Shown: positions 38,967 through 44,103 of the stretch, piece by piece
How the letters are laid out: each line of letters begins with the position of its first letter
Position numbering within the stretch: position 1 is the stretch's first letter
Assembly: GCF_017357105.1 (NCBI RefSeq)
Contig: NZ_CP071596.1
Location: forward strand, 620,001 to 684,000
From: Natronosalvus caseinilyticus
GTDB taxonomy: Archaea > Halobacteriota > Halobacteria > Halobacteriales > Natrialbaceae
Length of the DNA stretch: 64,000 nt
Direction of reading: 5' to 3'
Notes under the pieces: model-generated
The model's input: only the letters and a program-made list of their open reading frames with translations
What the model was told of the DNA's origin: nothing
The model's database searches: none
Position numbers and translations under genes: made by a program

Positions 38967-39446
38967 ATGACGTGGTGCCCGCTCGACGAAACGGACAGAC
39001 AGTTGCTCGACCTGTTACAGGAAAACGCGCGATACAAGGCGACCACTCTGGCCGAGGAGATTGGGGTCTCCGACAACACTATCCACAACCGGATGGCTCG
39101 ATTAGAGGAAGAGGGGATCATCACCGGCTACACGACGGCTATCGGTTACCAGTCGACCGGGCTTCGACTCTACTTCCACTTCACCTGTACGACCCGGATC
39201 AGCGAGCGGTCCGCCGTGGCCGGAGAGGCACTGGCGCTCCCACAGGTCGTCGAAGTGACGGAACTGATGACCGGTCAGGAGAACCTCCACATCAAAGCGG
39301 TCGGCGCCGAGGACGCGGACATCACCCACGTCGCCGAACAACTCGACGACCTCGCGCTGGAGATCGACGACGAGAACCTCATCCGGGCCGAGTACACGCG
39401 TCCCTTCGAGTACGTGCGCGGGCTGGAGTTGGCAGACGATCACTAA
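38967..39446 (+). CDS. Lrp/AsnC family transcriptional regulator
   Basis: 159 residues. The helix-turn-helix is at about 5-55 (LDETDRQLLDLLQENARYKA, IGVSDNTIHNRMARLEEEG), and the ligand-binding RAM-like domain occupies about 65-150. Family members sense amino acids or related ligands as octamers. It precedes a small zinc-ribbon gene and lies about 0.5 kb before the thioesterase, a possible target. Confidence 0.9.
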   Translation: MTWCPLDETDRQLLDLLQENARYKATTLAEEIGVSDNTIHNRMARLEEEGIITGYTTAIGYQSTGLRLYFHFTCTTRISERSAVAGEALALPQVVEVTELMTGQENLHIKAVGAEDADITHVAEQLDDLALEIDDENLIRAEYTRPFEYVRGLELADDH

Positions 39447-39603: not shown

Positions 39604-39783
39604 GTGAGCGATACCCCCACCGGAAAGTCAGTATCGTGCCCGGAGTGCAACGAAACGACGTTCGCGATCGTACCGAAGAATAGCGAGATCGTGGGCGACG
39701 AGGCAAACGCGGGGGGAAAAGTCTGGGTCAATTGCCGTAGTTGTGGGGTCCAGTTTCTCGCCTACTATCGGCAGCGTGACTGA
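39604..39783 (+). CDS. Small zinc-ribbon protein
   Basis: 59 residues starting with GTG. Two Cys pairs, CPEC (12-15) and CRSC (44-47), are spaced for a zinc ribbon. ACTTATACC at about 39552-39560 is a TATA about 45-50 bases ahead of the start. Such tiny zinc-ribbon proteins are common in haloarchaea and often needed for fitness, but no function is known for this one. Confidence 0.7.
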   Translation: MSDTPTGKSVSCPECNETTFAIVPKNSEIVGDEANAGGKVWVNCRSCGVQFLAYYRQRD

Positions 39784-39902
39784 GATTCGGCGTGAACGCC
39801 GGATTTGTCGTCTCGAGGGATCGCGTACCGATAGTCGAGGAACAGTCGAGTGCGGACGATCATCGGCAGCGTCGCGGCACCACCCCCGGTGGTAAAGTTC
39901 AC

Positions 39903-39921
39903 TTGTAGTAGTGAAAATTAG
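39903..39921 (+). promoter_or_regulatory. Promoter-proximal element, arm 1 of an inverted repeat
   Basis: TTGTAGTAGTGAAAATTAG. Its first 17 bases recur exactly, inverted, at 40495-40511. It also overlaps the local palindrome TTCACT-N6-AGTGAA (39899-39916). It sits at the TATA position of the thioesterase gene, so it may be an operator. Confidence 0.55.
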
Positions 39922-39956
39922 ATAGGCATTAGTGAATCGGGACTCCAGAACGCTAC

Positions 39957-40487
39957 ATGAACCGCGAGTGGTCCGTAAGCAGGGCGAGATCCCTTCAAAC
40001 GTCGTATACCGAAGTAAGCGAGATTCTGATGCCCAACGAGACGAACAACCTCGAGCGGGCACTCGGCGGCGCCGTGCTCCACTGGATGGACATCTGTGGG
40101 GCAATCGCCGGCAGACGGTTCGCTCGACGGCAGGTTGTCACGGCCGCGATGGACCACGTCGACTTCATCGCGCCGATCGAACTCGGCGACATCGTGACCG
40201 TGACCGGCTACGTATTCGACACGGGGGCAACCAGCATGGACGTCCGAGTCGACGTCCGTGCCGAGCGCCCCCAACACGGCGAAGCGAACGAGACGGCGAC
40301 CTCGTTTTTCACCTTCATCGCACTCGACGAGTCGGAAACGCCGACGGCCGTGCCGGCGCTTCGCTGTCCAACGACGGCCGAGGCCGACCTTCGCGACCGG
40401 GCACTCGAGGCGCGTCGCTCCCGGCGGCGCGAACTCGCGCGCGAACTCGAGGAACCCGCCGACGGTGAGGGCCGAGCGAGCGAATAA
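39957..40487 (+). CDS. Hotdog-fold acyl-CoA thioesterase
   Basis: 176 residues. The pattern MPNETNNLERALGGAVLHWMD (here split as MPNETNNL and ALGGAVLHWMD) is the acyl-CoA thioesterase signature, with Asn and Asp of the active site; the usual aromatic before GG is Leu. VDFIAPIELGDIVTVTG and an SFFTFIAL strand complete the hotdog. It hydrolyses acyl-CoA thioesters; chain preference is unknown. It is flanked by a 17-base inverted repeat and precedes the ribonucleotide reductase genes. Confidence 0.87.
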   Translation: MNREWSVSRARSLQTSYTEVSEILMPNETNNLERALGGAVLHWMDICGAIAGRRFARRQVVTAAMDHVDFIAPIELGDIVTVTGYVFDTGATSMDVRVDVRAERPQHGEANETATSFFTFIALDESETPTAVPALRCPTTAEADLRDRALEARRSRRRELARELEEPADGEGRASE

Positions 40488-40491
40488 ACAA

Positions 40492-40511
40492 CTAAATTTT
40501 CACTACTACAA
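40492..40511. promoter_or_regulatory. Arm 2 of the inverted repeat, upstream of nrdA
   Basis: Read on the minus strand it is TTGTAGTAGTGAAAATTTAG, identical over 17 bases to the element at 39903. It lies immediately before TTTTATTG (40512-40519), a TATA candidate for nrdA. Together with arm 1 it suggests one regulator for both genes. Confidence 0.55.
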
Positions 40512-40658
40512 TTTTATTGGGAAGCGTTTATGTGAGTCCGGTCGGATACCGGTACTGCGGAGGCGACGCGGGCTCGAAGGAACCACGCACTACCGTCGAC
40601 AGTGGCGACGCTGCCGATTTCGGGTGCCGTCGTCCCGCAACGAACGACGAATTCACCT

Positions 40659-43091
40659 ATGAGCTACCACACGCCGACATCGATTCCAGACGTCCGGTCG
40701 ATCCTCGAACGCGCACAGCCTACCGACGGGCCGTCACTGCTCGCGGACGAATCGCTTCTCGATGCGATCGATCGCTCCCTCTACGAGGGAGCGACGGTCG
40801 ACGAACAATACGAGGCCGTCATCCAGGCGTTTACGGCCCGAATCGAGCGCGATCCCGCGTTCGAACATATCGCCGGAACGGTCGCCCGACACCGATACTA
40901 CCGAACCGTCCTCGGCACGGACGTCTCCGGGGACGAACTCGACCGGGCCTATCGGGCAACGTTCGTGACCAACCTCGAGCGGGCGGTCGACGCGGGCCGT
41001 CTCGACGGTCGACTGCTCGAGCGATTCGACCTCGAGGAACTCGCCGAGGCGCTCGACCCCGGCCGGGACGAGTACCTCGAGTACATGGCGATGGAGACGC
41101 TCGTCCAGCGGTACGTCCTTCGAATCGAACAGGGTGGCGAACCACTGGAGTTACCGCAGGCGTTCTGGATGCGGGTGGCGATGGGCCTCGCTCTCGAGGA
41201 GGACGACCCGCAGAAGCGGGCCATAGAGTTCTACGAGGTGCTCTCGAAACTCGAGTTCACGCCGTCGACGCCGACGCTCTTTCACAGCGGCACAGCCCAT
41301 CCACAGCTCTCTTCGTGTTACCTGACGACCGTTCCGGACGATCTCGAGGGGATCTTCGACGCCTACAAGCACCACGCGCAACTCTCGAAGTGGAGCGGCG
41401 GACTCGGAAACGACTGGACGAACGTTCGAGCCGAGGGCGCGTTGATCGAGTCGACCGGCGTCGAGTCGACCGGCGTCGTCCCCTTCCTCCGGATCAGCAA
41501 CGACGTGACGGCGGCGATCAACCGCTCCGGGAAACGTCGGGGGGCGGCCTGTGCCTACCTGGCGTGCTGGCACCTCGACTTCCCCGCGTTCATCGACCTC
41601 AAGCGCAACACCGGCGACGAGCGACGCCGAACCCCTGACATGAACACGGCCGCGTGGATCCCGGACCTCTTCGTCAAGCGCGTCCAGGACGGTGGCAAGT
41701 GGACGCTGTTCAGTCCCGACGACGTACCCGACCTCCACGAACTCACCGGCGCGGCGTTCGAGGAGCGATATCGAGAGTACGAGCGCCTGGCCGACGCGGA
41801 CGAACTCCGCCAGTACGAGCGCGTCGACGCCGAGTCGCTCTGGCGGCAGTTGCTCACCCGCGTGTTCGAAACCGGCCATCCGTGGCTGACGTTCAAGGAT
41901 CCGTGCAACGTCCGCTCGCCGCAGGACCACGTCGGTACCGTCCACTCCTCGAACCTCTGTACGGAGATTACGCTAAACACGAACGCCGACGAACACGCCG
42001 TGTGCAACCTCGGGAGCGTCAACCTCGCGACCCACGTCGCGGACGGCGAACTCGACCGCGAGCACCTCGCCTCGACGATCGAAACCGCGATGCGGATGCT
42101 CGACAACGTCGTCGACCTGTGTTTCTATCCGACCGACGCAGCCGAGCGCTCGAACATGCGCCATCGCCCGGTCGGTCTGGGTACGATGGGGTTTCACGAC
42201 GCGCTGATGGACCTGGGGGTCCCGATGGGCAGCGAGGACGCCGTCGAGAAAGCGAACCGCTGGCAGGAGTTTGTATCGTATCACGCTATACAGAACTCCT
42301 CGAAACTCGCCGCCGAACGAGGGACGTATCCGTCCTACGAGGAGTCGAAGTGGGACCGCGGCCTCCTGCCGCAGGACACAGTCGACCGGCTCGAGGACGA
42401 ACGCGGCCGCGCGATTCCGACCGAACGTGAGGAGACCCTCGAGTGGGAGACCGTCCGCGAGCACGTCGCCGAACACGGCATGCGAAACTCGAATACGATG
42501 GCGATCGCGCCGACGGCGACCATCTCGACGATCAACGGGACGACGCCGTCGATCGAACCGCTGTACTCGAACCTCTACGTGAAGTCGAACATGTCGGGTG
42601 ATTTTACGATCATCAACGAGCACCTGGTCGAGGACCTGCGAGAGCGAGGGTGCTGGGACGACGACCTGGTCGATCGGCTCAAGTATCACGACGGCTCAGT
42701 CCAGGAGCTCGACGCGGTTCCTGACGACCTCAAAGCGCTGTACCGGGGCGCGTTCGAGATCGATCCGCGCCACCAGCTTCGACTCACGGCCCACCGCCAG
42801 ACGTGGATCGACCAGTCAGTTTCTCACAACGTCTTTTTCCCGTCGACCGACGGTACGTTGCTCGACGACGTGTACAAAACGGCCTGGGAACTGGGGCTGA
42901 AAACGACGTACTACCTGCGCACCCTCGGCGCCTCTCAGATCGAGAAGTCGACCCTCGACATGGCCGAATACGGGAAGACCCAGCACCGGTACGAGCGGGG
43001 GGACGGAGGGAGCGAATCGGGTCCCAGAGACGACGGATCGAGCGACGACCTCCCCTCCCTCGACGATCCGAGCTGTGAGGCCTGCCAGTAA
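40659..43091 (+). CDS. nrdA: Ribonucleoside-diphosphate reductase alpha subunit
   Basis: 810 residues. The catalytic cysteines are at C220 (SSCYLTT), C434 (SSNLCTEI) and C449 (AVCNLGSVNL); Glu at C434+2 completes the site. APTATISTINGTTPSIEP is the family core loop. The C-terminus ends in the swinging pair CEACQ. It reduces ribonucleotides to deoxyribonucleotides with the beta subunit next door. The frame extends to 40602, but MSYHTPTS is the more natural start. A complete N-terminal ATP-cone is not evident. The start of nrdB lies 17 bases downstream. Confidence 0.92.
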   Translation: MSYHTPTSIPDVRSILERAQPTDGPSLLADESLLDAIDRSLYEGATVDEQYEAVIQAFTARIERDPAFEHIAGTVARHRYYRTVLGTDVSGDELDRAYRATFVTNLERAVDAGRLDGRLLERFDLEELAEALDPGRDEYLEYMAMETLVQRYVLRIEQGGEPLELPQAFWMRVAMGLALEEDDPQKRAIEFYEVLSKLEFTPSTPTLFHSGTAHPQLSSCYLTTVPDDLEGIFDAYKHHAQLSKWSGGLGNDWTNVRAEGALIESTGVESTGVVPFLRISNDVTAAINRSGKRRGAACAYLACWHLDFPAFIDLKRNTGDERRRTPDMNTAAWIPDLFVKRVQDGGKWTLFSPDDVPDLHELTGAAFEERYREYERLADADELRQYERVDAESLWRQLLTRVFETGHPWLTFKDPCNVRSPQDHVGTVHSSNLCTEITLNTNADEHAVCNLGSVNLATHVADGELDREHLASTIETAMRMLDNVVDLCFYPTDAAERSNMRHRPVGLGTMGFHDALMDLGVPMGSEDAVEKANRWQEFVSYHAIQNSSKLAAERGTYPSYEESKWDRGLLPQDTVDRLEDERGRAIPTEREETLEWETVREHVAEHGMRNSNTMAIAPTATISTINGTTPSIEPLYSNLYVKSNMSGDFTIINEHLVEDLRERGCWDDDLVDRLKYHDGSVQELDAVPDDLKALYRGAFEIDPRHQLRLTAHRQTWIDQSVSHNVFFPSTDGTLLDDVYKTAWELGLKTTYYLRTLGASQIEKSTLDMAEYGKTQHRYERGDGGSESGPRDDGSSDDLPSLDDPSCEACQ

Positions 43092-43107: not shown

Positions 43108-44103
43108 ATGACACTCATCAACACCGACAGCGAACACGACCCGAACAAGATCCTCCCCATCGAGTACGACTGGGCGCGAGAGTACTACGAAGCCGGCGTC
43201 GACAACAACTGGGTTCCCGCCGAGATTCCGATGCAGGACGACGTCACCCAGTGGAACGGTGACGCCCTTTCCGCGGCCGAACGACAACTCGTCGAGTGGA
43301 ACCTCGGCTTCTTCTCGACGGCGGAGTCGCTCACGGCGAACAACATCGTCCTCGCGCTGTACGAGTACGTGACCGCCCCCGAGTGCCGACAGTACCTCCT
43401 GCGCCAGGCCTACGAGGAGGCGATTCACACGGACACCTTCATCTACTGTTGTGACTCGCTGGGGTTCGATCCCGAGTACCTCTACGGGATGTACGACCGA
43501 ATTCCGGCGATCGAGGAGAAAGACGCCTTCGTCGTCGACCTGACGCGAGCCATCGATCGGCCGACGTTCACCATCGACACCGACGACGACCTTCGGGAAT
43601 TTCTCCGGGACCTCGTCGGCTTCTACGTCATCATGGAGGGCATCTTCTTCTACGCCGGCTTCGCCATGATGCTCGGGCTCAAACGCCAGCAGAAACTGGT
43701 CGGCGTCGGCCAGCAGTTCGAGTACATCATGCGGGACGAATCGCTCCACGTCGGCTTCGGCGTCGACCTGATCACTCAGCTCCGCCGGGAACACCCGGGC
43801 GCCTGGACCGACGATTTCGGCGAGGAGGTGATCGACCTGATCACCCGAGCCGTCGAGTTAGAGCGCGTCTACGCACACGAGGCCTGTCCCGACGAGATAC
43901 TCGGTATGGGGCCCGACCAGTTCGCAACGTACGTCGAACACGTCGCCGACCGCCGCCTCGAGCAACTCGGCTTGCCGACCCAGTACGGGGTCGAGAACCC
44001 GTTCCCGTGGCTCTCCGAACAGGTCGATCTGAACAAGGAGAAGAACTTCTTCGAGACGCAGGTGACCGAGTACCGCAGCGGCGCTAGCCTCGAGTGGGAT
44101 TAG
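43108..44103 (+). CDS. nrdB: Ribonucleotide reductase beta subunit, class Ic-like
   Basis: 331 residues. The metal ligands read E73 (FFSTAES), E104 and H107 (EEAIH), E177 (IMEGIF), E211 and H214 (DESLHVG). The residue four after H107, normally the radical Tyr, is F111, and the first ligand is Glu rather than Asp. This is the class Ic pattern of Chlamydia, where a Mn/Fe centre replaces the tyrosyl radical. The C-terminal VTEYRSGASLEWD holds the Tyr of the radical path. It pairs with NrdA. The Mn/Fe cofactor is inference from family knowledge. Confidence 0.92.
   Translation: MTLINTDSEHDPNKILPIEYDWAREYYEAGVDNNWVPAEIPMQDDVTQWNGDALSAAERQLVEWNLGFFSTAESLTANNIVLALYEYVTAPECRQYLLRQAYEEAIHTDTFIYCCDSLGFDPEYLYGMYDRIPAIEEKDAFVVDLTRAIDRPTFTIDTDDDLREFLRDLVGFYVIMEGIFFYAGFAMMLGLKRQQKLVGVGQQFEYIMRDESLHVGFGVDLITQLRREHPGAWTDDFGEEVIDLITRAVELERVYAHEACPDEILGMGPDQFATYVEHVADRRLEQLGLPTQYGVENPFPWLSEQVDLNKEKNFFETQVTEYRSGASLEWD

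Follow-up and report, generated by a model that had tools for sequence, protein, structure and literature searches.

A two-box promoter element of a thioesterase gene and nrdA in Natronosalvus caseinilyticus as a probable operator of a haloarchaeal cobalamin/cobalt regulon

Introduction

Two neighbouring promoters of Natronosalvus caseinilyticus share a run of identical bases, which raises the question of what this shared sequence is and which regulator, if any, reads it. In the window analysed here, a stretch of 64,000 nucleotides of contig NZ_CP071596.1, the sequence TTGTAGTAGTGAAAATT occurs in two exact copies, at 39903-39919 on the plus strand and inverted at 40495-40511 on the minus strand (17 nt, 100% identity, 575 nt apart). 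An initial annotation had reported this inverted pair, and both copies were found where it had placed them. It proposed a single, dimeric regulator for a thioesterase and a ribonucleotide reductase, with the product of the nearby Lrp gene as a candidate, or else the boundary of a small mobile element.

Results

The first copy lies at the promoter of a gene for a YciA-like 4HBT acyl-CoA thioesterase (39957-40487, plus strand; PF03061, 62 bits, over the cut-off), which also matches acyl-CoA hydrolases of the PDB. The second lies at the promoter of nrdA, encoding the alpha subunit of a class I ribonucleotide reductase (40659-43091, plus strand; NF005544, 1097 bits, over the cut-off), and nrdB for the beta subunit follows (43108-44103, plus strand; NF005550, 516 bits, over the cut-off). 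Read directly from the sequence, NrdB has a phenylalanine at the position of the radical tyrosine (EAIHTDTF) and is therefore class Ic-like. Upstream of the thioesterase gene are a Lrp/AsnC regulator gene (38967-39446) and a 59-aa zinc-ribbon-like ORF (39604-39783), the latter being found beside the thioesterase only in the nearest relatives. Close orthologues of the thioesterase occur in 18 genomes of the family; many adjoin nrdAB, often with nrdR in between, and the gene order around the thioesterase is conserved across genera.

In the whole genome (G000, 4.24 Mb, 99.96% complete) no third copy of TTGTAGTAGTGAAAATT was found at up to two mismatches, and at three mismatches there was one place. 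Shuffled sequence gave 0.01 matches with up to three mismatches allowed, which excludes a chance origin of the pair and agrees with the earlier judgement that chance was very unlikely. A search of public genome contigs for the exact 17-mer returned 46 matches, none titled as a haloarchaeon, and was uninformative. The matching bases said to continue past the 17-mer were not seen, as neither end of it extends directly; the actual unit measures 34 bp. Moreover, a palindrome suggested as a regulator site, TTCACT-N6-AGTGAA, is indeed present at 39898-39915, overlapping the first copy. It is absent from the copy in the closest relative (G002), which reads CACACTTGTAGTAGTCCAA, and therefore is not the functional unit.

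The 34-bp unit was derived by Gibbs-style alignment of 39 promoter stretches chosen by eye, with the nrdR promoter L093 as a non-member. Its consensus is aaCAAgt.aAcTTgtacTA.t.CAAtTtagtTgG, and the 17-mer is its core. The element consists of two CAA-N6-TTG-like boxes 20 bp apart centre to centre, i.e. two helical turns; it shows dyad symmetry (correlation 0.84) and can also be read as a 20-bp direct repeat (correlation 0.81). This geometry fits a dimeric or a tetrameric regulator, in line with the dimeric regulator first envisaged. Both window copies are in the sense of their own gene and thus in the same orientation. Since the element is itself a dyad, such same-facing sites can share an exact inverted 17-mer.

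An operator-like sequence common to both promoters was confirmed, in the form of the 34-bp element, each copy of which lies immediately before the BRE/TATA region of the promoter concerned. At the thioesterase promoter it reads GTAAAGTTCACTTGTAGTAGTGAAAATTAGATAG (39892-39925, plus strand; placed by PWM alignment, profile E=0.011) and holds the 17-mer at 39903-39919; a probable, weak TATA region follows at 39926-39935 on the plus strand, as judged from the position of TATTTTGT/GTTTTTGT in relatives. At the nrdA promoter it reads AACAACTAAATTTTCACTACTACAATTTTATTGG (40487-40520, plus strand), has 0 mismatches to the IUPAC pattern and is the best site of the genome (profile E=4e-4), holding the second 17-mer at 40495-40511 on the minus strand. 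The probable nrdA TATA box, GTTTATGT (40526-40533, plus strand), has the spacing that nrdR/nrdA promoters show in relatives, with the TATA box beginning 5-6 bp past the element.

A profile of 49 elements (R1), from which this genome and the two relatives closest to it were left out, retrieved only the thioesterase and nrdA sites of this genome at E<=10. In the IUPAC search nrdJ, the gene of the B12-dependent ribonucleotide reductase, came second, with 1 mismatch and the element directly upstream of ATTTATAG. Both nrdJ and btuF/btuC of this genome carry the 34-bp element, at scores under the profile threshold. The pattern gave 21 matches in all versus 19 for the reversed pattern, and those beyond nrdA, nrdJ, the thioesterase and btuF/btuC look like background. 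The best match of the NrdJ protein was NrdJ_Z, with 377 bits on a fragment, which does not reach the whole-protein cut-off of 400.

Recurrence in front of nrd and thioesterase genes of relatives had been named as the way to recognise an operator, and the element does recur there. It was found directly upstream of the TATA box at 21 nrdA/nrdR promoters and 17 thioesterase promoters of relatives, and at all nrdJ promoters analysed (30/30; minimum score 7.8 versus a control maximum of -1.6). Across 40 loci, 711 kb in total, matches above 17 bits were nearly all at nrd or thioesterase promoters. One extra match above 17 bits is seen in G122 (L194), where a second copy of the nrdJ promoter region, element included, lies about 820 bp farther upstream. 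At another nrdJ locus (L120:1575-1649) the nrdJ TATA box and nrdJ are separated by a 24-aa ORF, MERNTQFSGKLASGDSCVLEVARA, which overlaps the nrdJ start by ATGA, so that translational coupling to nrdJ is possible. The element is present in f1; beyond the family the distribution is patchy: the element was found in the samples of f7, f8 and f17 and was not found in those of f4, f5, f6 and f12.

These findings bear on two of the earlier proposals. A mobile-element boundary would account for a thioesterase gene flanked by inverted 17-bp arms. However, there is a single such locus in this genome, the element stands singly at many other, unlinked promoters, and gene order and promoter positions are conserved in relatives. 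Because the element recurs at promoters, this proposal is refuted, and we give it next to no credence. Likewise, the adjoining Lrp/AsnC regulator could bind both sites, as its gene is adjacent in this genome, in G002 and in G004. The other relatives keep the element, yet no such gene was found in the flanking DNA fetched for their thioesterase genes (up to 10 kb per side); the Lrp gene stands beside these genes in the closest relatives only, and a role of this Lrp protein is extremely doubtful. In G004 the thioesterase lacks its first residues and the upstream element, and it directly follows the small zinc-ribbon ORF (L056).

The position of the element in front of nrdR in several relatives, where nrdR lies between the thioesterase gene and nrdA, could point to an operator of the ribonucleotide reductase repressor NrdR. 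NrdR boxes are likewise paired palindromic boxes at ribonucleotide reductase promoters, yet they differ from the element in sequence, spacing and regulon: the boxes of the element are 20 bp apart, whereas NrdR requires about three or four turns (PMC12051234), and B12 genes are not NrdR targets. Besides, this genome has no match to NrdR (TIGR00244) or to the ATP-cone (PF03477) and nevertheless keeps the element, and NrdR is absent from most genomes of the family. The upstream element persists with or without nrdR and is therefore not the NrdR site. Downstream of the TATA box, the majority of NrdR-bearing relatives carry a distinct pair of candidate boxes, and the NrdR operator was dropped as an explanation on account of this second pair in their leaders and of the genome lacking NrdR; we hold it to be most improbable. 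The candidate NrdR boxes, CACCAGATATTGCGG and CCCCAnATATGGGG, lie 29-30 bp apart between the nrd TATA box and the nrdR start (L084-L092), and the pair is weak or missing where nrdR was lost. Two relatives (L096 in G061, L097 in G071) have a decaying nrdR, with partial or below-cut-off matches and broken zinc-ribbon residues, and an intact 34-bp element.

The element is not restricted to the genes above. A family-wide profile scan gave matches in 118 of 125 genomes. When 40 other matched places were fetched, 12 lay before cobB and 12 before Ni/Co-type ABC transporter genes, five before the cbtA/mnhE region, two before cobN/chlID, two before an isocitrate lyase-malate synthase operon and one before another nrdA, while six of the 40 had no clear link to B12. 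Moreover, the divergent btuF/btuC promoters of the B12 transporter had the element at 30/30 loci, this genome included (minimum 14.0 versus a control maximum of 0.8). Thus, it recurs upstream of genes for making cobalamin and for transporting B12 and cobalt, as an operator of a B12/cobalt regulon should. In many cob clusters the element occurs two or three times; at cobB of this genus no element site was found. The identities of CobB (NF010471, 811 bits), CbtA (PF09490, 166 bits), BtuC (NF007081, 585 bits) and the permease (NF045470, 386 bits) were over the cut-offs of curated models, whereas those of AceB_Halo (338 bits) and CobN (399 bits) come from truncated fragments and are below cut-off. 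At the glyoxylate-bypass loci of G105 and G051 (L240/L241) the element is followed by a small ORF and then by the genes of an isocitrate lyase-like protein and of malate synthase, and in G105 there are overlapping extra element sites (L299).

The recurrence at B12 genes also speaks against a DNA-damage (UV) response element like TTTCACTTTCA, which has been described before the UV-induced radA1 in Halobacterium. In Halobacterium NRC-1 nrdJ is UV-induced (PMC2556686, PMC1224876), and TTTTCACTA lies within the nrdA copy of the element. The 11-mer TTTCACTTTCA itself is in neither copy, and where it does occur upstream of nrdJ it belongs to different families, so that we consider a UV response very unlikely. 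In family f4 (L175, L178) the region upstream of nrdJ lacks the element and shows TTTCACTTTCA instead.

A weightier alternative is that the element is the operator of a NikR-type cobalt/nickel metalloregulator, an RHH tetramer with half-sites two turns apart, and not of a B12 sensor. NikR operators are likewise long dyads with half-sites about two helical turns apart and have some Ni/Co transporter targets. This matches the two-turn dyad geometry of the element and the presence of cbtA and Ni/Co-type transporters among its targets. In G049/G055 a NikR gene stands beside one Ni/Co-type transporter, and the cob cluster of G060/G062 contains a NikR-like gene (PF08753, 68 bits, over the cut-off). 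On the other hand, most of the fetched cob or btu loci yielded no NikR-like gene, NikR was not found beside most sites, and the B12 transporter, nrdJ and nrdA among the targets favour B12 over metal alone. The NikR site of E. coli, GTATGA-N16-TCATAC, has another sequence, and B12 genes dominate the targets here. We therefore rate the NikR reading as unlikely, and yet as one to be kept in mind. NikR or NikR-like genes, one of them a fragment, were noted close to Ni/Co, cob and thioesterase loci that bear the element (L298:6914-7339, L209:1222-1614, L107 from 9194); as candidate regulators they are a lead only. CdrS was also considered, and the literature searched gave no helpful lead on it.

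Discussion

The 17-mer pair is, with high probability in our view, the visible part of two operators of a haloarchaeal cobalamin (B12)/cobalt regulon with a putative B12/cobalt-sensing regulator. The element itself, its symmetry, its position directly before the promoter and its recurrence at B12, cobalt and ribonucleotide reductase genes are direct observations, and from these we infer the sign and the ligand of the regulator. The single regulator once suggested for the thioesterase and the ribonucleotide reductase thus stands as far as the shared operator-like element is concerned, and the two genes do not form a private pair, as the regulon is that of cobalamin and cobalt. Points against this regulon are the thioesterase of G004, which has no element before it, the nrdJ and btuF/btuC sites of this genome, which score under the profile threshold, the lack of a site at cobB of this genus and the six fetched places with no evident B12 connection.

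In the mechanism that we propose, the two-box dyad would suit two dimers or one tetramer, bound to a single face of the helix. The regulator would sense B12 (adenosylcobalamin) or cobalt and, with ample cofactor, probably act as a repressor, repression being the most likely sign because the site abuts BRE/TATA and covers genes of synthesis as well as uptake. Under B12 shortage the site would be freed, leading to more B12 synthesis and uptake, cobalt import and NrdJ. Shortage would also raise the B12-independent replacements, namely the class I ribonucleotide reductase (nrdAB) and the glyoxylate bypass, the latter in some relatives. Speculatively, the thioesterase might release CoA trapped in acyl-CoAs such as methylmalonyl-CoA when the B12-dependent mutase stalls. 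NrdJ needs B12, and its place in a B12-repressed set would therefore be a non-textbook arrangement. Glutamate mutase, which is used in the methylaspartate cycle, is a B12 enzyme, and an element in front of the glyoxylate-bypass genes of G051 and G105 therefore fits the proposed regulon. The glyoxylate and methylaspartate cycles are the two routes of acetate assimilation in haloarchaea (PMC5592240).

Similar wiring has been proposed for bacteria, where the B12-independent ribonucleotide reductase is under B12 riboswitch control beside NrdJ (PMC545781). The bacterial B12 riboswitch (Rfam cobalamin family) likewise places B12 synthesis, transport and the B12-independent ribonucleotide reductase under one B12 signal (PMC545781). 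In contrast to this RNA, the element described here is double-stranded promoter DNA upstream of the TATA box. No Rfam family reached the gathering threshold in ten element-bearing loci, so no riboswitch was seen there. For archaea, Rodionov et al. reportedly described in 2003 a CBL-box, the predicted site of a hypothetical B12 regulator. In being a DNA signal for archaeal B12 genes with a hypothetical regulator, our element resembles that reported box. Some or all of the B12 part of the regulon may already have been predicted with the CBL-box; in the literature searched we found no paper using that term.

To our knowledge, the control of gene expression by B12 is understood mainly through bacterial riboswitches, and the literature searched yielded no paper naming an archaeal counterpart. 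An operator defined this precisely, and seen at dozens of sites, is a direct handle for finding the archaeal B12 regulator. In a single testable regulon it brings together ribonucleotide reductases of classes I and II, the import of cobalt, the synthesis and uptake of B12, the thioesterase and the glyoxylate bypass. Whether a single haloarchaeal factor reads the B12/cobalt status in this way is, in our judgement, evenly poised; it would balance NrdJ, and possibly the methylaspartate cycle, against the class Ic-like ribonucleotide reductase and the glyoxylate bypass, together with an acyl-CoA thioesterase relieving the trapping of CoA.
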